The translations under genes were made by a program, and so were the position numbers. A stretch of DNA of 64,000 nucleotides, taken from contig NZ_JACJOG010000022.1 of the NCBI RefSeq assembly GCF_014695375.1, positions 1 through 64,000 of the forward strand, in the 5' to 3' direction. Positions 13,696-24,061 of the stretch are shown here, piece by piece. Positions within the stretch are counted from its first letter, which is position 1, and each line of letters begins with the position of its first letter. The notes beneath the pieces were generated by a model. The model saw only the letters and a program-made list of their open reading frames with translations, was not told the origin of the DNA and made no database searches. This DNA comes from Coleofasciculus sp. FACHB-T130 (lineage in GTDB: Bacteria > Cyanobacteriota > Cyanobacteriia > Cyanobacteriales > FACHB-T130).

Positions 13696-15558
13696 TCAGG
13701 GTGTCTGTTGAGAATTTTGAGAATCCGGAGATTCTTGTGGTTTTCTCGGCTCAGGTGAGTTTTGAGAATTTTGAGAATCTTGCGGTTTTTTGGACTCCGA
13801 GGATTCTTGAGATTCCCGTGGTTTTTGAGACTCAGAGGATTCTTGAGAATCTCGTGGTTTTCTAGAATCTTGAGCTTCTTGAGAATCTCGTGGTTTTCTC
13901 GGCTCAGGGGAGTTTTGGGAATTTTGAGAATCTCGTGGTTTTTGAGACTCAGAGGATTCTTGAGAATCTCGTGGTTTTCTAGAATCTTGAGCTTCTTGAG
14001 AATCTCGTGGTTTTCTCGGCTCAGGGGAGTTTTGGGAATTTTGAGAATCTCGTGGTTTTCTCGGCTCAGGGGAGTTTTGGGAATTTTGAGAATCCCGCGG
14101 TTTTTGAGACTCAGAGGATTCTTGAGAATCTCGTGGTCTTCTAGAATCTTGAGCTTCTTGAGAATCTCGTAGTTTTCTCGGCGCAGGTGAGTTTTGGGAA
14201 TTTTGAGAATCCCGTGGTTTTTGAGACTCAGAGGATTCTTGAGAATCTCGTGGTTTTCTAGAATCTTGAGCTTCTTGAGAATTTCGAGCTTCTCGTGAAG
14301 CTGTCATCGGCGGACAATCTTTTTCGTTGTACGCAAACTTGACCTGAACAACATAAACTTGTTCCTTTGCACCAAAGGAATGAGCCTTAACGACTTCCTG
14401 CGCTTTCTCATTCAAAATGTTGTAACCAGAACTCCTAAGCAGTTCGGTCGTGACACTACCTTTAGCATCCACCTGCGCCCCAACTAAAGCAGTTGCTTCC
14501 GGCTTCTTAATAAAGCACGCACGAAATTGAGAAGTCAGCGTAATTTCTTGTTCTTTCGATGGGACTTTGTTGAGTCTAGAACCCCAACCCGCTAACTTTT
14601 GTCTGTAATCGTCATCACGAGTGCCATTTCCGTCATAGGCGTAGTTTCGACGTTGCTGCCGTATATCAGCAAGGACTTGCTGCCGTTGCAGTTCGCGCCG
14701 CGCCATTGCTATTTGTTGTGGAGAAAGAGGAGGCGTCTGTTGTCCGGAAGTCGCTGGAGGTTGTTGCTCAGAATTTTTAGACGTTTGTTGTTCGGAATTC
14801 GCTGCTATTTGTGATTCCGAATTCGGTGTCTGTTGTCCAAAATCAATTGACCTCTGTGGCTTGGGATTGCTAGGCGTCTGTTGTCCAAAATCGATAGGGG
14901 GCTGTTTTCCAGAAGATTCCTCAGAAGGGTTGAAAGGTGTCTGTTGATCGGAAGTGGGCGGTGGCGGCGGAAACAGACTGGAAATGTCGTCCTGCCCCGG
15001 CTGGACACCAGCGGGCAATCCCTGAAACAGGCGACGGCGAATCTCTTGCTGTGTCACCTTCCGAGAACCTGATTGGGGAACTTTGGGGGGATCGGGAAGC
15101 CGTCCTACGATAAAGTTTGGGTTGTTGGGATTGAAAGGATTTTGCCTAGCTCTTTGCTGACGGCGATCGCTCGATCTCTGAAAAATCTCCGGCAACCCAG
15201 CCCCAGTGTTAGGTTGCGGTGTGGAGTTCAGCGGAAATTTGTAGGGTGGGGAGCTAGGGATCGGCGGCAATACGGAAGACGGCGGCGGCAAAGGTGGCAA
15301 CAGCTGGGTTTGGTTGGGAATGGGTGGCAGCGACACGGGCGGCGGTGCAAGTTGCGGAATGCGGCTTTGCTCTGCCGGTGTTAACTCCACAACTTTGACA
15401 GTCCCTCGCGGCTTCTGCTCTTCCGGTTTGGAGGACGCGGATAAACTGGGAAGGGTCATCGCCAGCACTCCGTGGATGCCCACGGAAGCCAAAGCTGCAA
15501 TCAGAGGCGGCTGAGTTAACTTTTCAGGCAGGTTTCTAATGAATGAGAGATAGGACAT
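13696..15558 (-). CDS. TonB-like envelope protein with a long repeat tail
   Basis: 620 residues. The N-terminus has one hydrophobic segment (about 18-38, PPLIAALASVGIHGVLAMTL), then a proline-rich spacer (residues 48-110 with LAPPPVSLPPIPNQ), Gln/Ser/Pro-rich linkers to about 290, and a TonB C-terminal-like domain near 335-418 (GAQVDAKGSVTTELLRSSGYN). This is the layout of an inner-membrane-anchored energy transducer that spans the periplasm. After this domain, residues about 419-620 are tandem repeats of 12- and 15-residue units built on RDSQ (RDSQEAQDSRKP, RDSQESSESQKP, RDSQNSQNSPEPRKP). Typical TonB proteins end at the C-terminal domain, so the tail is unusual. It is highly charged and probably disordered. 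No exbB/exbD neighbours are present. Confidence 0.7.
   Translation of the reverse strand: MSYLSFIRNLPEKLTQPPLIAALASVGIHGVLAMTLPSLSASSKPEEQKPRGTVKVVELTPAEQSRIPQLAPPPVSLPPIPNQTQLLPPLPPPSSVLPPIPSSPPYKFPLNSTPQPNTGAGLPEIFQRSSDRRQQRARQNPFNPNNPNFIVGRLPDPPKVPQSGSRKVTQQEIRRRLFQGLPAGVQPGQDDISSLFPPPPPTSDQQTPFNPSEESSGKQPPIDFGQQTPSNPKPQRSIDFGQQTPNSESQIAANSEQQTSKNSEQQPPATSGQQTPPLSPQQIAMARRELQRQQVLADIRQQRRNYAYDGNGTRDDDYRQKLAGWGSRLNKVPSKEQEITLTSQFRACFIKKPEATALVGAQVDAKGSVTTELLRSSGYNILNEKAQEVVKAHSFGAKEQVYVVQVKFAYNEKDCPPMTASREARNSQEAQDSRKPRDSQESSESQKPRDSQNSQNSPAPRKLRDSQEAQDSRRPRDSQESSESQKPRDSQNSQNSPEPRKPRDSQNSQNSPEPRKPRDSQEAQDSRKPRDSQESSESQKPRDSQNSQNSPEPRKPRDSQEAQDSRKPRDSQESSESQKPRESQESSESKKPQDSQNSQNSPEPRKPQESPDSQNSQQTP
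13700..14290 (-). repeat. in-frame tandem repeat array in the TonB-like gene
   Basis: Three related units of 12, 12 and 15 codons, all starting with RDSQ or a close variant, are arranged as a 39-codon (117-bp) supra-repeat that occurs about four times. One extra 15-codon unit and one extra 12-codon unit interrupt the order. Base-level similarity between copies is high (for example gagaatctcgtggtttt recurs), which points to recent duplication by slippage or unequal exchange. Confidence 0.85.
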
Positions 15559-16565: not shown

Positions 16566-17267
16566 ATGCCTTTACCGACTGTCATTTTGCCCGGATATCT
16601 CGAAGGCGCGATCGCCTACCGTCCACTCGAACAATCTCTACAAGAATCGGGTTTCCCCACTGTAACCGTACCCTTGCGAAGTCGGGATTGGGTGCCCACT
16701 GTAGGAGGACGGTCGATGATTCCGATTTTGCGGCAACTCGACCGCACGGTAAAACAAATGTTGCAGCAATACAACGTTTCTCAGCTTAACCTGATTGGTC
16801 ACTCCGCTGGCGGCTGGATTTCCCGGATCTACCTGGGGGAAAAACCTTATTCTATTCACGGAGATGTCACAGAAGACGCTGGTTTGTGGCACGCTCACCC
16901 TTCTGTTGCCACGCTTGTCACCTTAGGAACGCCCCATATCAGCGGGGAACGCTGGACGCGGAAAAATCTAGATTTTGTCAAGATGAACTATCCAGGAGCC
17001 TTCTACTCAACGGTGCGTTACATCTGCGTTGCCGGTAAATCTATCTTCGGGGCGAGGCGTCCGGGGCAGTGGCTAGCCTACAGCAGTTACAAACTCACCT
17101 GTGGGATTGGTAACACTTGGGGAGATGGGATTACGCCGATTGAAGCCGCTCATCTGGAGGGAGCAACCAATCTGGTTATCGAAGGTGTCAAGCACTCACC
17201 CAGAACTCCTGGAATTTGGTACGGTTCGCCAGTCGCTTTACCGTCTTGGGTGGAGTATTTGGCATGA
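16566..17267 (+). CDS. alpha/beta hydrolase, lipase-like
   Basis: 233 residues. The serine nucleophile elbow GHSAGGW lies near residue 78, preceded by the LNLIGHS strand. The oxyanion strand PTVILPGYLEG is at the N-terminus. A likely catalytic His is in EGVKHSPRTPG near residue 216. This fits the small triacylglycerol lipase-like or GPI-inositol-deacylase-like hydrolases widespread in cyanobacteria and plant plastids. No signal peptide is visible, so it is probably cytoplasmic or membrane-associated. Substrate unknown. Confidence 0.8.
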   Translation: MPLPTVILPGYLEGAIAYRPLEQSLQESGFPTVTVPLRSRDWVPTVGGRSMIPILRQLDRTVKQMLQQYNVSQLNLIGHSAGGWISRIYLGEKPYSIHGDVTEDAGLWHAHPSVATLVTLGTPHISGERWTRKNLDFVKMNYPGAFYSTVRYICVAGKSIFGARRPGQWLAYSSYKLTCGIGNTWGDGITPIEAAHLEGATNLVIEGVKHSPRTPGIWYGSPVALPSWVEYLA

Positions 17268-17418: not shown

Positions 17419-18114
17419 ATGAAAACCGAGCAGTATGAATTTGTCCTTCGGCGTCTGGCTACGATCCTGGCTGTTGGGATTCTAACCTTGAGCCTAATCG
17501 CTGCTGTGACTGGAATTCTGTTAGCTTTCTACTACGAACCGGCGGCGGGTGGTGCTTATGATTCCCTGCAAGCGATCGCAAATGAAGTTTCCAATGGCTG
17601 GGTGATTCTCCGCGTTCACGATCTCGCGGGAAATGGGTTAATTGCAGTGTCTTTAATCGAAATTGTCGTGATGTTTCTGGGGCGACAATTTACGAATAGT
17701 TGGTTAACTGCGTGGATTAGTGGCATTCTATTGACATTAACCGCGATCGCGCTCGGTTGGACGGCGATGATTCTCGATTGGACTCAACTCGGCTACTGGC
17801 GTCTGAGCATCGAACTGGGAACTATCGAAGCCATTCCTTTTATTGGCTCCCAGCTGCGAGACATCGTTACAGGTGGTGGAGCCATTACTACAGCTACTGT
17901 CGAACACCTCTACACCCTACACAGCTACATTTTATCCGTGGGAGCGATCGCGATCGCACTGATTCATCTAGGCGGGTTATTAGTCCAGGAAAGACAGCAA
18001 AAGCAGCTTCAGATAAAATTAGCTGCCACTAACTTAGCTGCCGAGTCAGAATCCGCGCAAGCACAGAACGATCCCAAATCTCTCAGCCTTAGCAGTGCTG
18101 AGTCACAGAAATAG
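17419..18114 (+). CDS. cytochrome b/b6 N-terminal-domain-like membrane protein
   Basis: 231 residues with four hydrophobic helices, collinear with cytochrome b6. Matching segments are TGILLAFYYEPAAGGAYDS, GWVILRVHDLAGNG, DWTQLGYWRLSIELGTIEA, IPFIGSQL and LYTLHSYILSVGAIAIALIH. In cytochrome b6 the hemes are held by His pairs spaced 14 and 15 residues apart. Here the second pair (TLH and LIH, 15 apart) is present, but in the first helix the His of RVH is followed by Glu, not His, 14 residues later (SLIEIVV). The Cys that binds heme ci in b6 is also absent. It may therefore hold one b heme. The C-terminal tail after residue 200 is soluble and polar. Confidence 0.75.
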   Translation: MKTEQYEFVLRRLATILAVGILTLSLIAAVTGILLAFYYEPAAGGAYDSLQAIANEVSNGWVILRVHDLAGNGLIAVSLIEIVVMFLGRQFTNSWLTAWISGILLTLTAIALGWTAMILDWTQLGYWRLSIELGTIEAIPFIGSQLRDIVTGGGAITTATVEHLYTLHSYILSVGAIAIALIHLGGLLVQERQQKQLQIKLAATNLAAESESAQAQNDPKSLSLSSAESQK

Positions 18115-18275: not shown

Positions 18276-20216
18276 TCAAGCTTCTGTAGGTTCTGTTTGA
18301 GGTTCTGGTTTGAGTTCTCCCAAAAGGACACCTACACTTGCAGATGAGATGGGTACCTCTTCAACTTCCGGCAGTTTCTCTAGCGCCAAACGAGAAGATG
18401 GACTCGCACCCGATAAACGCTTCAAGAGTTTTGGTCGAGGGTCATGCAGCACATAAATAATCTGATCTCCCGCTTCCCAATCCTCTGTCGCAGGTACCAC
18501 TTGGAAACGCCCCTCCCGTAAAAATAGTAAGGGTACTAGCTCCCCGGAACGAATTAAGGCTTGTAGATGAGCTTGTTGAAACGAAAAACCAGGCTCTTTG
18601 AGTGACGTTTTGCCTAACTTCACCTGTCCATCGTTCAGGTATTGATTCCAATTCTTAATTGATAAATTAGGAATGAAAGCTTGGTGAACCTTACTATTAT
18701 TAGTCGGTGTATTCGCTTGGGGAAATACTGCCAACACACGAGGAGGACGAAACTCCTCAGAAGCACGCTGCGCCAACACTAAATTCACCTCCCCATTATT
18801 CGTCATTGCCAGAAAGGTTCCCATTGAGTCGAGTCCCGCCTCTTCCAGAACTTCCGTATCCAAACCACTGCTTAAAAATACCCGCAGATTTTCCTGCTCT
18901 GCTTTTTGGCACGCTTCGGGGTCTGTGTCAATCAGCACTACAGACTCTCCTTGTTCCTGAAACAAACGGGCAATCAGGCGGCTTAAGGGATTACAACCAA
19001 TAATCACAGCGCCCGTTGCTTCCTGGAGGTTGATTTGCAGCCAACGAGCAACCCAACGTGCTGTCAGTCCTTGCAAAAATACGGTCAGGATAATCGTGAG
19101 GAAGACCAACGCTTTGATAGAATCGCCGCCGTTGATGCCCCGCTGGGTCAGAAAAATGGCAAATAGAGAAGCAACCGACGCCGAAACAATTCCTCTAGGA
19201 GCAATCCAGCACAAAAACAGCTTCTGCCGCCAGTTCAGGTCGCTATTGAAGGTACATAAGCCGATGTTTATCGGTCGCACGATAAACATCAGTGCCAGAA
19301 CTGTAAACAAACTTCCCCACCCCAGCGCAAATACACTTGCGATGGACAAGTCAGCTGCCAGCAGGATGAACAAAACCGAAACGCCAAGAATCGTTAATTG
19401 TCCTTTAAATCGCCGCAACATCCGTTCTTCTGGGATTGAGGAGGCACCCAGAACAATTCCCGCCATCACGGTTGCCATTAACCCCGACTCACTGCGGATT
19501 GTTTGCGCCAAACCAAATAAGCCCCACAACCCAGCCAGAACGACCAGGTTATTTAAGTCTTCTGAAAGAAACTTGGCGCGTTTGATAATCCAACCCATCA
19601 ACCAGCCACCGACAACGCCAATGCCGCCGCCGATGCCTAAGCGTAAGACGAGACCGATGAAAGCTTCGATGGGGTCGGTATCGGCGTTCAAAATGGTGTC
19701 CAGCACGACGACAGCCAAAATAGCCCCTACTGGGTCAATTAAGACGCCTTCTCCTTCCAGAAGTGCTGCCACTTGCCGATCTACTTGCACCTGTTTCAGC
19801 AGAGGACTGATCACGGTTGGTCCCGTTACGACCACTAAGGAAGCGTAGAGAAAAGCGATAGGCCAGGGAAATTCACCCAGCCAGTGAGCTGCCATACCGC
19901 CGCCCAGAAGCGTGATCAGCGTTCCCAGCGTCACTAAGTTTCGCAGGCTGCCGGAAACCTTGCCCAACTCTCTCAGCTCTAGGTTCAGCCCCCCCTCAAA
20001 CAGAATCACTGCCACTGCCAGAGCAGTAATGACCTCTAAGCCCGTACCTAGAGAATGCGGGTGTAGCAGGCGCAAGCCATCAGGTCCCAGGAGAATGCCA
20101 AACAGCAGCAAAAAGACGATGCTAGGAACCTGAAGATATTGGGCTAAAACCTGGGCGCTGATACCTGCAACAACCGTGATAACGATTTGCAGGGTTAGTT
20201 CAAAGGATGTTTCCAT
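18276..20216 (-). CDS. cation:proton antiporter with TrkA-N regulatory domain
   Basis: 646 residues. About twelve hydrophobic helices over residues 1-395 form a CPA-type Na+/H+ exchanger domain (VILFEGGLNL near residue 72; LEGEGVLIDPVGAILAVVV near residue 152). A Rossmann-type TrkA-N domain follows at about 405-520 (AVIIGCNPLSRLIARLF, then VVLIDTDPEA), with a TrkA-C-like segment to about 610 and a variable tail. Predicted role: sodium or potassium for proton exchange at the plasma or thylakoid membrane, gated by nucleotides. Cyanobacteria have several such genes (Nha/Nhs series) and I cannot tell which one this is. The ATG at 20216 has no clear ribosome site. Confidence 0.85.
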   Translation of the reverse strand: METSFELTLQIVITVVAGISAQVLAQYLQVPSIVFLLLFGILLGPDGLRLLHPHSLGTGLEVITALAVAVILFEGGLNLELRELGKVSGSLRNLVTLGTLITLLGGGMAAHWLGEFPWPIAFLYASLVVVTGPTVISPLLKQVQVDRQVAALLEGEGVLIDPVGAILAVVVLDTILNADTDPIEAFIGLVLRLGIGGGIGVVGGWLMGWIIKRAKFLSEDLNNLVVLAGLWGLFGLAQTIRSESGLMATVMAGIVLGASSIPEERMLRRFKGQLTILGVSVLFILLAADLSIASVFALGWGSLFTVLALMFIVRPINIGLCTFNSDLNWRQKLFLCWIAPRGIVSASVASLFAIFLTQRGINGGDSIKALVFLTIILTVFLQGLTARWVARWLQINLQEATGAVIIGCNPLSRLIARLFQEQGESVVLIDTDPEACQKAEQENLRVFLSSGLDTEVLEEAGLDSMGTFLAMTNNGEVNLVLAQRASEEFRPPRVLAVFPQANTPTNNSKVHQAFIPNLSIKNWNQYLNDGQVKLGKTSLKEPGFSFQQAHLQALIRSGELVPLLFLREGRFQVVPATEDWEAGDQIIYVLHDPRPKLLKRLSGASPSSRLALEKLPEVEEVPISSASVGVLLGELKPEPQTEPTEA

Positions 20217-20253: not shown

Positions 20254-20786
20254 TATCAATATCTTTGGTAAAGGATAGTAAATATTAACCCTTCCTGGCT
20301 GCTATGCAATAGTCAACCTGTCTTTGCATCGGATATTTTGAGACAAGTATCTGTAGTCTATGATACACGTTTGGGCTAAAAATCTACTGAAAAAGCAAAA
20401 ATTTGTCTGTGATGCAAACAGGGTATATAGAGTAGATGCGAAAAGGGCACAGAAGAAAAGTGCGATCGCTCCTTTTCTGAATTGCCTGCCCTTTCAACCA
20501 CGCTTTTCAATCCGTTTGTTGAGGGATAATCCAGCAGCACCTCCCCCAAATCTTCTGACTGGACAACCGTTCCTGCACTCAGAACGCAAAGAACCTCTTC
20601 CTACTGTGCTGGTTCGATCCTAGCAAGCTGTTCTAAGAAACACTGCTTCTTGCTGGCATTCAACTGGAGTAAGGGTGTCAGTAAACCCGGTTAGCTGCAC
20701 TTGTGTTACTTTTATCATTTCTACGGTATCTTTTCGGATATCACCACTTGCTCCAGACTTGTAAACTTGATCAGCACACGACTTGG
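20254..20786. other. intergenic gap between divergent genes
   Basis: About 530 bp between the antiporter and DUF5895 genes. An 87-codon frame at 20360-20623 has no family resemblance and is not called. No RNA gene was recognised. Confidence 0.35.
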
Positions 20787-20798
20787 ATGCCTAAGACC

Positions 20799-21770
20799 AT
20801 GAACGCATCTGCGAATTTTGACTTCGACGACGACAAGTTCAACGCACCACCTTCTCAAGTGATCCCTTGGTGCCAGATGATCAATCCTCGATATGGGAAA
20901 ACTGGCATCCAGCCGCACGGATTGGCAATTAAGCTAGATAACGCTAATGCGGTTGGCTTTAAACCGGATGCCACTTGGGACCAGGTGCAGCATGAGTTTA
21001 GCACCGGAGTCGAAACGCTGTTTATCACTACTACCCCCCGCTTAGTCATCGTGCGGCGGGGGCCATTGTCTGTGAAAGACCGTGAAACTGGGATGAAATT
21101 GGGTACGTTTAAAGATAACTACGATGCTTTCTTGGCAGACAAGCTCAAGTTTAAGACGTTCACTCGCCACTTGATTTTTTTAGTCGGGGAGAAACAAAAG
21201 CTTTTGCATTACTTGCCACTGCAATTGACGGTGAATGGTGCAGCAGGTGCTAGTTTTGGAAAATCCTACTGCGAGATGAAACAAGGTCAAGTCGTCGGTG
21301 GATTTATTGCTGAATTGGAAAAGGCTTATGCTCAGTATCGCAAGCAGCCTTTAACACCAAAAGGACCGTTGTTTCACGCTCATGGAATTTTTTGTCCGTT
21401 AATTGAAATGGAGGAAAGGGGCAGTGGCACAAATACGGCTCTGGTGGCTAGTACAGTAGATTACGAGCATCCTACTGCTAAGAATTTAACAGAATATCTA
21501 ATTTCTTCCAGTTCTGAGGAGTCTGTGCTTATCTGCAAAACTTTTGAGGAGTACCAAGACTTCGGAAAAGAAAAACCGAAAGAGGAAACCCTCGCGCCCA
21601 AAATGGAGATGGCAGGGGTGTCTAGTTCATACGATTATCACGATGAATTTGAGTACGGCGAACCTCCTTATGTGCGAAACGTTTGGTCAGAAATTGATGG
21701 TATTTATGAACCTCTAACCGAGGAATGGAATCATCAAAGGATTGACCACCGGATGAAATTTCTCGGTTAG
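20799..21770 (+). CDS. DUF5895 domain protein, cyanobacterial
   Basis: About 323 residues from ATG 20799 (MNASANFDFDDDKFN). The frame is open further up to 20703, and ATG 20787 (MPKTMNAS) is another choice. The sequence with SQVIPWCQMINPRYGK, then ETLFITTTPRLVIVRRGPL and a long KTFTRHLIFLVGEKQK section, is the type called DUF5895, found mainly in cyanobacteria. Its function is unknown, and such proteins are often linked to phage- or plasmid-like single-strand handling only by guesswork. There is no signal peptide and no membrane segment; the C-terminus is acidic. A group II intron starts 34 bp after its stop. Confidence 0.65.
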   Translation: MNASANFDFDDDKFNAPPSQVIPWCQMINPRYGKTGIQPHGLAIKLDNANAVGFKPDATWDQVQHEFSTGVETLFITTTPRLVIVRRGPLSVKDRETGMKLGTFKDNYDAFLADKLKFKTFTRHLIFLVGEKQKLLHYLPLQLTVNGAAGASFGKSYCEMKQGQVVGGFIAELEKAYAQYRKQPLTPKGPLFHAHGIFCPLIEMEERGSGTNTALVASTVDYEHPTAKNLTEYLISSSSEESVLICKTFEEYQDFGKEKPKEETLAPKMEMAGVSSSYDYHDEFEYGEPPYVRNVWSEIDGIYEPLTEEWNHQRIDHRMKFLG

Positions 21771-22321: not shown

Positions 22322-24061
22322 ATGAACACGGCTGACAAGTCGATGTATGTATGGGAAACAATTCCTTGGCGTAAGCTTGAGCGAAGTGTTTTTAAGCTCC
22401 AAAAGCGCATCTATCAAGCTTCTCAACGTGGTGATGTCAAAACAGTCCACAAACTCCAGAGACTACTGATAAAATCCTGGTCGGCAAAATGTTTAGCTGT
22501 ACGTCGAGTAACGCAGGAAAACAGGGGCAAAAAGACAGCCGGAGTAGATGGAATAAAATCACTTACGCCCATCCAAAGGCTAGCCCTAGTTAAAAACCTG
22601 AAACTATCCCAAAAATCAAGACCAACGAGAAGGGTATGGATTCCCAAACCCGGAACAAAAGAGGAGCGACCATTAGGGATTCCAACGATGGCAGACCGTG
22701 CGTTGCAGGCATTGGTAAAACTAGCATTAGAGCCAGAATGGGAGGCAAAATTCGAGCCTAACTCATACGGTTTCCGACCGGGGCGCTCATGTCATGACGC
22801 AATAGAAGCAATATTTAATACAATCAGGTACAAAGCCAAATTTGTATTAGACGCTGATATTGCTAAGTGCTTCGACAGCATTAATCATGAAGCTCTGCTT
22901 AGAAAATTAAATACATCCCCCACCATTCGCCATCAAATAAAGGCTTGGTTAAAAGCAGGGGTAATAGACTGGAAAGCCTACTCCGAAAGGAAAGAAGCAT
23001 ATAGTCATACATCTAAGAGCACACCACCGGGAGGCGTAATATCACCTCTCCTAGCAAACATTGCCCTTCACGGATTGGAAAATCGAATTACTCAGGCGTT
23101 TCCCAAAAGAAATCTCTTGGTAAATGGTAAAACGGTAACGATTCCAAGCCCTGCCGTTATTCGATATGCCGACGACTTCGTAATATTACACGAAGATTTA
23201 TCCGTTGTCCAAAGATGTCAGCAGATAGCATCAGACTGGTTAAAAGACATGGGCTTGGAACTAAAACCAAGTAAAACCCGAACTTCTCATACCCTCCAAA
23301 AGTATGAAGAAAATAGAGGCTTCAATTTCCTAGGTTTTAATGTCAGACAATATCCACAAGGAAAAAATCACTCTGGCAAAAACACCAATGGACAATTGCT
23401 TGGATTTAAGACCCTCATCAAACCCAACAATGAAGCAATAAAGAGGTTGTTGAGTAAAACTGCCGAAATAATTGGTTCCATGAAAGCTGCTCCCCAGCCT
23501 GAGGTAATCAAAAGACTGAATCTCATACTGCGTGGATGGGCAAATTATTACTCAACAGTAGTAAGCAAAGATGCTTTTGCAAAAGCAGATCACTTACTAT
23601 TCTCACAGCTTAAAAGTTGGGCGGAATTTAGGCACCATAACAAAGGAACATCTTGGGTAAAAGCAAAATACTGGAAGACTATAGGTACTGAGAAGTGGGT
23701 GTTTACGAACTCCACGAAGGAGGCAAGACTGCTCGAAATAGCGGATACACCCATACTCAGATATACAAAAGTCAAAGGTAATAGCAGCCCCTTCGATGGA
23801 AACTGGGTGTACTGGAGTAGCAGGTTAGCAAAATATCCCGGTATTTCAAAAGATGCCGCCTTCCTACTAAGAAGGCAAAAGGGTAAATGCAGCCGTTGTG
23901 GGCTTAATTTTAACATGGGAGATGTCATGGAAATACATCACATTGACGAAAACCATAACAACAACAAAAACAGCAACCTATCAATGCTACACGGGCATTG
24001 CCACGACCATACACACTCTATATGGTTAGAGAACGAATTTAAGGCACTAGAGGAATGGTAA
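22322..24061 (+). CDS. ltrA: group II intron reverse transcriptase/maturase with HNH endonuclease
   Basis: 579 residues. RT domains run from about residue 60: PLGIPTMADRALQALVKLAL, YGFRPGRSCHDA, the Asp in VLDADIAKCFD, GGVISPLLANIALHGLE, and the catalytic YADD in IRYADDFVILH near residue 283. The maturase (X) domain covers about 370-460 (LILRGWANYYSTVV). A C-terminal HNH domain carries CSRCGLNF, EIHHIDENH and GHCHDHTH. The protein folds the intron RNA for splicing, nicks the target DNA and copies the intron. All key residues are present and the frame is intact, so it may be active. The ATG at 22322 is the first in frame after the intron 5' structure. Confidence 0.95.
   Translation: MNTADKSMYVWETIPWRKLERSVFKLQKRIYQASQRGDVKTVHKLQRLLIKSWSAKCLAVRRVTQENRGKKTAGVDGIKSLTPIQRLALVKNLKLSQKSRPTRRVWIPKPGTKEERPLGIPTMADRALQALVKLALEPEWEAKFEPNSYGFRPGRSCHDAIEAIFNTIRYKAKFVLDADIAKCFDSINHEALLRKLNTSPTIRHQIKAWLKAGVIDWKAYSERKEAYSHTSKSTPPGGVISPLLANIALHGLENRITQAFPKRNLLVNGKTVTIPSPAVIRYADDFVILHEDLSVVQRCQQIASDWLKDMGLELKPSKTRTSHTLQKYEENRGFNFLGFNVRQYPQGKNHSGKNTNGQLLGFKTLIKPNNEAIKRLLSKTAEIIGSMKAAPQPEVIKRLNLILRGWANYYSTVVSKDAFAKADHLLFSQLKSWAEFRHHNKGTSWVKAKYWKTIGTEKWVFTNSTKEARLLEIADTPILRYTKVKGNSSPFDGNWVYWSSRLAKYPGISKDAAFLLRRQKGKCSRCGLNFNMGDVMEIHHIDENHNNNKNSNLSMLHGHCHDHTHSIWLENEFKALEEW

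Follow-up and report, generated by a model that had tools for sequence, protein, structure and literature searches.

A gene in the analyzed window (the whole stretch of DNA, 64,000 nt) encodes a relative of cytochrome b6 in which the n-side heme-ligand histidine of helix B is replaced by glutamate, and the replacement of this histidine is a feature of an entire protein family, not of one odd glutamate-bearing gene. The family is found in many cyanobacteria (62 of 290 sampled Cyanobacteriia genomes), and the histidine is absent from each of the 77 distinct homologues compared. The initial annotation had described a protein collinear with b6, having Glu in place of His 14 residues past the first ligand, no Cys for heme ci, a retained TLH/LIH pair and a short gene of its own. 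All these observations stood up to alignment, and the ligand pattern is robust; what has changed is its reading, which now extends to a b6 relative with a family-wide histidine replacement.

The protein and its heme-ligand positions

The gene and the residues considered below are as follows; counts refer to the 77 distinct homologues.

17419..18114, + strand: free-standing gene for a 231-aa cytochrome b6-like protein with a Cytochrome_B domain (open reading frame with ATG start)
17464..17466, + strand: Ile16, where b6 has Cys35 to attach heme ci; residues found are Ile 44, Leu 19, Val 12, Thr 1, gap 1
17617..17619, + strand: His67 (in RVHDLAG), b6 His86, p-side heme ligand; 77/77
17659..17661, + strand: Glu81 (GAA, in SLIEIVV), position of the n-side heme ligand b6 His100; Gln 63, Glu 11, Asp 2, Ala 1, His 0
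17701..17703, + strand: Trp95, position of b6 Arg114; Trp in 77/77
17800..17814, + strand: Arg128 through Glu132; the two end residues never vary (77/77) and are Ala and Val in 28/28 petB
17920..17922, + strand: His168 (in TLH), b6 His187, p-side heme ligand; 76/77, Asn in L052
17965..17967, + strand: His183 (in LIH), b6 His202, n-side heme ligand; 76/77, Asn in L021

In a profile search, the window protein was assigned to the Cytochrome_B superfamily (Pfam PF00033, 95.2 bits, 6e-27, against a curated cut-off of 27.2). Its top sequence match in PDB is cytochrome b6 (7e-29), with residues 21–184 aligned without gaps. With the NCBIfam profile of cytochrome b6 (PRK03735) it scores 98.9 bits against a cut-off of 325. 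The top NCBIfam match is the ExtP b-type cytochrome (NF040969, profile length 205), yet the score of 103.4 bits is well under the cut-off of 290. The AF2 model, built from the window protein and 21 relatives (mean pLDDT 83.6; AF2 places no heme), is closest to Synechocystis b6 (Z 18.9, 2.9 Å over 189 residues; Foldseek E 1.7e-9). Among the matches listed, the N-terminal part of bc1 cytochrome b has the fold in common at Z 14.1–16.8, with two designed helical bundles at Z 15.4 and 14.7; the C-terminal half of the bc1 protein has no counterpart in the window protein. Since designed bundles reach such scores, the fold match alone is modest evidence, and the sequence match is decisive for the tie to b6.

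According to PMC5730185, the two hemes that b6 binds non-covalently are ligated by His 86, 100, 187, and 202, and b6 made in the E. coli membrane is reported to contain both; a C35A variant of b6 is also used in that work, assembly without heme cn being possible. Aligned with the product of petB from the same genome and with 27 other distinct petB sequences, residues 67, 81, 168, and 183 of the window protein fall on these four positions, and Ile16 falls on Cys35, the attachment point of heme ci. Residue 81 lies 14 positions after H67, and H183 lies 15 positions after H168. Where PetB has four His for two b hemes, the window protein thus has three and Glu at the fourth. The 28 distinct petB sequences come from the 30 best-scoring loci, and ten basal cytochromes b (from non-Cyanobacteriia lineages of the phylum) were taken from 12 places among the matches listed; in both of these non-random sets, the equivalent of site 81 is always His (28/28 and 10/10). 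Its absence from the window protein is no sequencing slip, since none of the 77 homologues has it and the copy from a genome of the same genus (L131) also carries Glu. The first family alignment has a large gap relative to petB at the start of helix A, with columns 13–15 unreliable, and a later alignment was used for residues other than the ligands and Cys35.

The window protein is 29% identical to the PetB of its own genome. The two have in common the fold, the equivalents of H86, H187, and H202, the W140/Q142/W146 set, and G51, whereas His100, Cys35, Arg103, and Arg114 are missing from the window protein, Gly37 is replaced, and Arg128 and Glu132 are specific to the family.

Both heme sites differ from those of b6 beyond the ligands. 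In b6, R103 and R114 meet the propionates of heme bn, and G37, G51, G121, and G135 make space for the hemes. On the n side of the 77 homologues, R103 is replaced by Val (72), Ile (3), or Leu (2), R114 by Trp throughout, and G37 by Ala (54) or Ser (22), while G121 is retained in 72. On the p side, G51 is kept in 76 (one gap), G135 is replaced by Ala (72) or Ser (5), Arg is found at the R83 position in only 24, and the commonest states at R87 are Asp (31), Asn (27), and Glu (6). The invariant R128 and E132 adjoin the conserved W121, Q123, and W127.

These replacements bear on the view that the protein resembles b6 in structure but carries little or no heme, acting as a scaffold or helping b6f as an accessory or assembly factor, with its His serving for packing or quinone binding. 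At each site arginines and one glycine that serve the hemes in b6 have been lost, and Asn is found once at H168 and once at H183. We nonetheless consider this view improbable: a histidine conserved in all 77 homologues (H67) and two others conserved in 76 (H168 and H183) are hard to explain without a cofactor, and the presence of the family in only 62 of 290 Cyanobacteriia genomes argues against a general assembly factor.

Distribution of the family and variation at site 81

In the sample of 290 genomes, matches were counted at E 1e-45 or better; the weakest match has 3.8e-64, and the petB of the same genome reaches 1.3e-25 with the same query. Among 40 genomes near that of the window (its own included), 11 carry a family gene. 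A pattern-based scan of contigs, which detects close relatives only, yielded 22 relatives, 21 of them in records with cyanobacterial titles; the remaining one (L022, 5980–6590) is a frame-shifted copy in a MAG labelled Chloroflexaceae and reflects transfer, a binning error, or a sequencing error. A tblastn search of plasmids returned 21 records, every one below 60% identity. Literature searches limited to open PMC papers listed no description of the family.

The 77 distinct proteins were obtained after removal of nine identical duplicates. The set leaves out L022 (two pieces), L024 and L027 (the window gene itself), L025 (the same gene as L026), and L023 (petB), and it includes L082 with a truncated N-terminus. 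Loci L131–L141, collected later, are not part of it. In these, site 81 is Glu in L131, L133, L134, L135, L139, and L140, Gln in L132 and L141 (the latter already counted as L058), and Ala in L137 and L138 (the latter being again the second copy of the window's genome); L136 is outside this comparison, and L133 and L141 are outside its helix-D part. The same-genus genome also has a second copy, with Ala at site 81 and H183 kept.

At the DNA level, Gln at site 81 is encoded by CAA (42) or CAG (21) and Glu by GAA (8) or GAG (3). Both Gln codons are one base away from His codons, so mutation to His would be easy, yet none is seen. The dN/dS values are 0.04–0.13 in 13 chosen pairs (NG86), several of which have dS near or above 1. 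That 76 of the 77 homologues carry Gln, Glu, or Asp here indicates selection on the site itself, which may not be simply a lost ligand. Comparison of acid-bearing with Gln-bearing members, made without a significance test, revealed no clear covariation of site 81 with other columns.

A quick tree was built with the site-81 column omitted and with 12 outgroup rows chosen from the 28 petB and 10 basal rows. The 77 members form one clade (SH-aLRT 100) on a stem of 4.7 changes per column. The basal rows do not form one group, and the join to the outgroup is unsure, the program warning of long branches that meet there. Counted as the fewest possible on this tree, which has many weak forks, site 81 changed state at least 10 times; Gln is its commonest state, and the ancestral state is not shown by the tree. 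The two proteins with Asn at a ligand position, L021 (H183) and L052 (H168), belong to the same tree group and have Glu or Asp at site 81. L081, L083, and L085, from the tree group of the members with an upstream PadR-type gene (below), share an N-terminal extension that may contain an extra membrane helix.

The states at site 81 also bear on the heme proposal in the initial annotation, which had stressed Glu itself and foreseen either a lost pocket or a Glu/His heme. A special role of Glu is not supported by the count, as Gln is mostly found in its place and Ala recurs in the second copy of the same-genus genome. Loss of the pocket fits better, since the positions of b6 R103, R114, and G37 are replaced too, while a specific Glu/His heme is unlikely as a conserved function given Gln, Asp, and Ala at the same position. 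A true natural n-side heme with His-Glu (or His-Gln) ligation and a differently tuned potential is consistent with the alignment of Glu81 to H100, opposite H183, and with the prevalence of Gln, Glu, and Asp; Ala in the second copies of both genomes and the 10 state changes on the quick tree make it very improbable.

Genomic context

The genome has a normal petB on another contig, with all four His and Cys35, adjoining a gene that was recognized by eye as subunit-IV-like. The window gene is therefore not the b6 gene of this genome. A petD gene does not adjoin it; at the window locus the neighbors are a hydrolase and an antiporter:

16566..17267, + strand: gene for an alpha/beta hydrolase, immediately upstream; adjacent to the family gene in at least 19 of 77 loci
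18276..20216, - strand: Na+/H+ exchanger carrying a TrkA_N domain, downstream and convergent; adjacent to the family gene in at least 18 of 77 loci

Both counts are lower bounds, because at some loci the flanking sequence is no longer than about 1.5 kb. The hydrolase gene ends approximately 150 bases 5' of the window gene on the same strand; under a stricter rule (a minimum of 900 bp of sequence upstream, with a distance below 400 bp) it was found in 16 of 75 loci. We do not claim a functional operon of the hydrolase with the family gene, as other loci have different neighbors. The exchanger is probably an old chromosomal neighbor and not a functional partner. No gene for a redox partner was recognized among the recurrent neighbors, most clusters of which were judged by eye or left without identification.

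A second family copy in the same genome (G000 C31:14618-15235, L026, - strand) has Ala at site 81 and keeps H183; it is followed by an FAD-dependent oxidoreductase-like gene. A PadR-type regulator gene lies just upstream of five members (L079, L081, L083, L086, and L090; the assignment was confirmed by Pfam on one of them, that of L081). Other genes of the window include one at 13696-15558 (- strand) whose product matches TonB_C weakly (18.1 bits; cut-off 24.6) and has PRKPRDSQNSQNSPE-like repeats in a long C-terminal tail, a DUF5895 protein at 20703-21770 (+ strand), and a group II intron reverse transcriptase/maturase at 22322-24061 (+ strand) that matches HNH weakly (19.0 bits; cut-off 21.4).

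Proposed heme content and significance

We favor, with a probability of about 55%, a stand-alone four-helix b-type cytochrome that would hold one bis-His heme on the p side, its n-side site being empty or occupied by a five-coordinate heme on H183. What is shown is the predicted and aligned fold, the conserved ligand pattern, a low dN/dS, a gene that stands by itself, and a normal petB at another place in the genome; heme occupancy of the two sites, redox partners, and function are inferred. The window protein would be placed in a cyanobacterial side branch of cytochrome b6. H67 and H168 would ligate a heme near the p side (lumen or periplasm), and the n-side site would be without bis-His ligation, the heme-ci Cys, and the b6 arginines of that face, most likely remaining empty or else carrying the five-coordinate heme with a Gln or Glu side chain nearby. 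With no low-spin heme on the n side, no heme ci, and no subunit IV gene next to its own, such a protein would not be expected to perform b6-type transmembrane electron transfer or a Q cycle, and judging from its residues it is unlikely to work as a normal b6. Its role may be that of a one-heme redox protein of the p side, with electrons possibly passing to or from plastoquinol or a lumenal partner near Arg128/Glu132, or that of a redox sensor.

The closest experimental parallels are the Rhodobacter capsulatus bc1 mutants H198N and H212N, altered at residues that we take to be the equivalents of b6 H187 and H202. In each, one His ligand of a b heme is replaced, as in the family (PMC8138165 and PMC4807273); they are laboratory mutants, whereas the family change is natural, family-wide, and located at the equivalent of b6 H100. 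In H198N, where a ligand of heme bL is changed, the heme becomes high-spin with a high potential and turnover is abolished (PMC8138165), and H212N (a heme bH ligand) is termed a heme bH knock-out (PMC4807273). Binding of heme bH in b6 is ascribed mainly to the C-D half (PMC5730185). The changed helix-B ligand, these mutants, and the main role in bH binding of the C-D half, which keeps H183, together lead us to favor one p-side heme and an empty or five-coordinate n side.

Several observations count against this reading. An empty n-side pocket by itself leaves the conservation of H183 (76/77) unexplained; the p-side heme site is altered as well (at b6 Arg87, Arg83, and Gly135); and H168 is lost in L052 and H183 in L021, to Asn in both cases. 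The apparent selection on site 81, the lack of a recognized redox partner gene among the recurrent neighbors, and the modest weight of the fold match alone also count against it.

The near-invariance of H183 leaves room for a five-coordinate heme, and a possible, if less favored, reading takes this further: two hemes would be bound, the n-side one being high-spin on H183, five-coordinate or weakly bound by Gln/Glu or water, with an open site for O2, NO, another small ligand, or quinone, as in a sensor or a small enzyme. Retention of H183 even opposite Ala speaks for such a site, as do the polar residue (Gln, Glu, or Asp) that 76 of 77 homologues have within a long predicted helix, the high-spin heme that His replacement can leave in bc1 (PMC8138165), and the main hold of the C-D half on heme bH in b6 (PMC5730185). 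The replacement of R103, R114, and G37 on the same face and the description of bc1 H212N as a heme bH knock-out (PMC4807273) speak against it, and no sensor or output domain was detected by Pfam in the window protein. That the n-side bis-His heme evolved into an open five-coordinate His-heme with a distal Gln or Glu, forming a ligand-binding or redox-sensing site in the membrane, seems doubtful.

The four-helix bundle of b6 and bc1 is usually viewed as carrying two bis-His hemes. For bc1, bis-His ligation of both b hemes is stated in PMC4807273, whose authors knew of no natural Met or Lys axial heme ligands in integral membrane proteins and expected such finds. The family described here keeps three of the four His in almost all members and the fourth in none, with a normal petB alongside in the one genome examined closely. 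It would offer a chance to see in nature what one half of the bundle achieves by itself and whether heme bH persists once its helix-B ligand is gone, and it would represent a natural ligand change, of a type other than Met or Lys.
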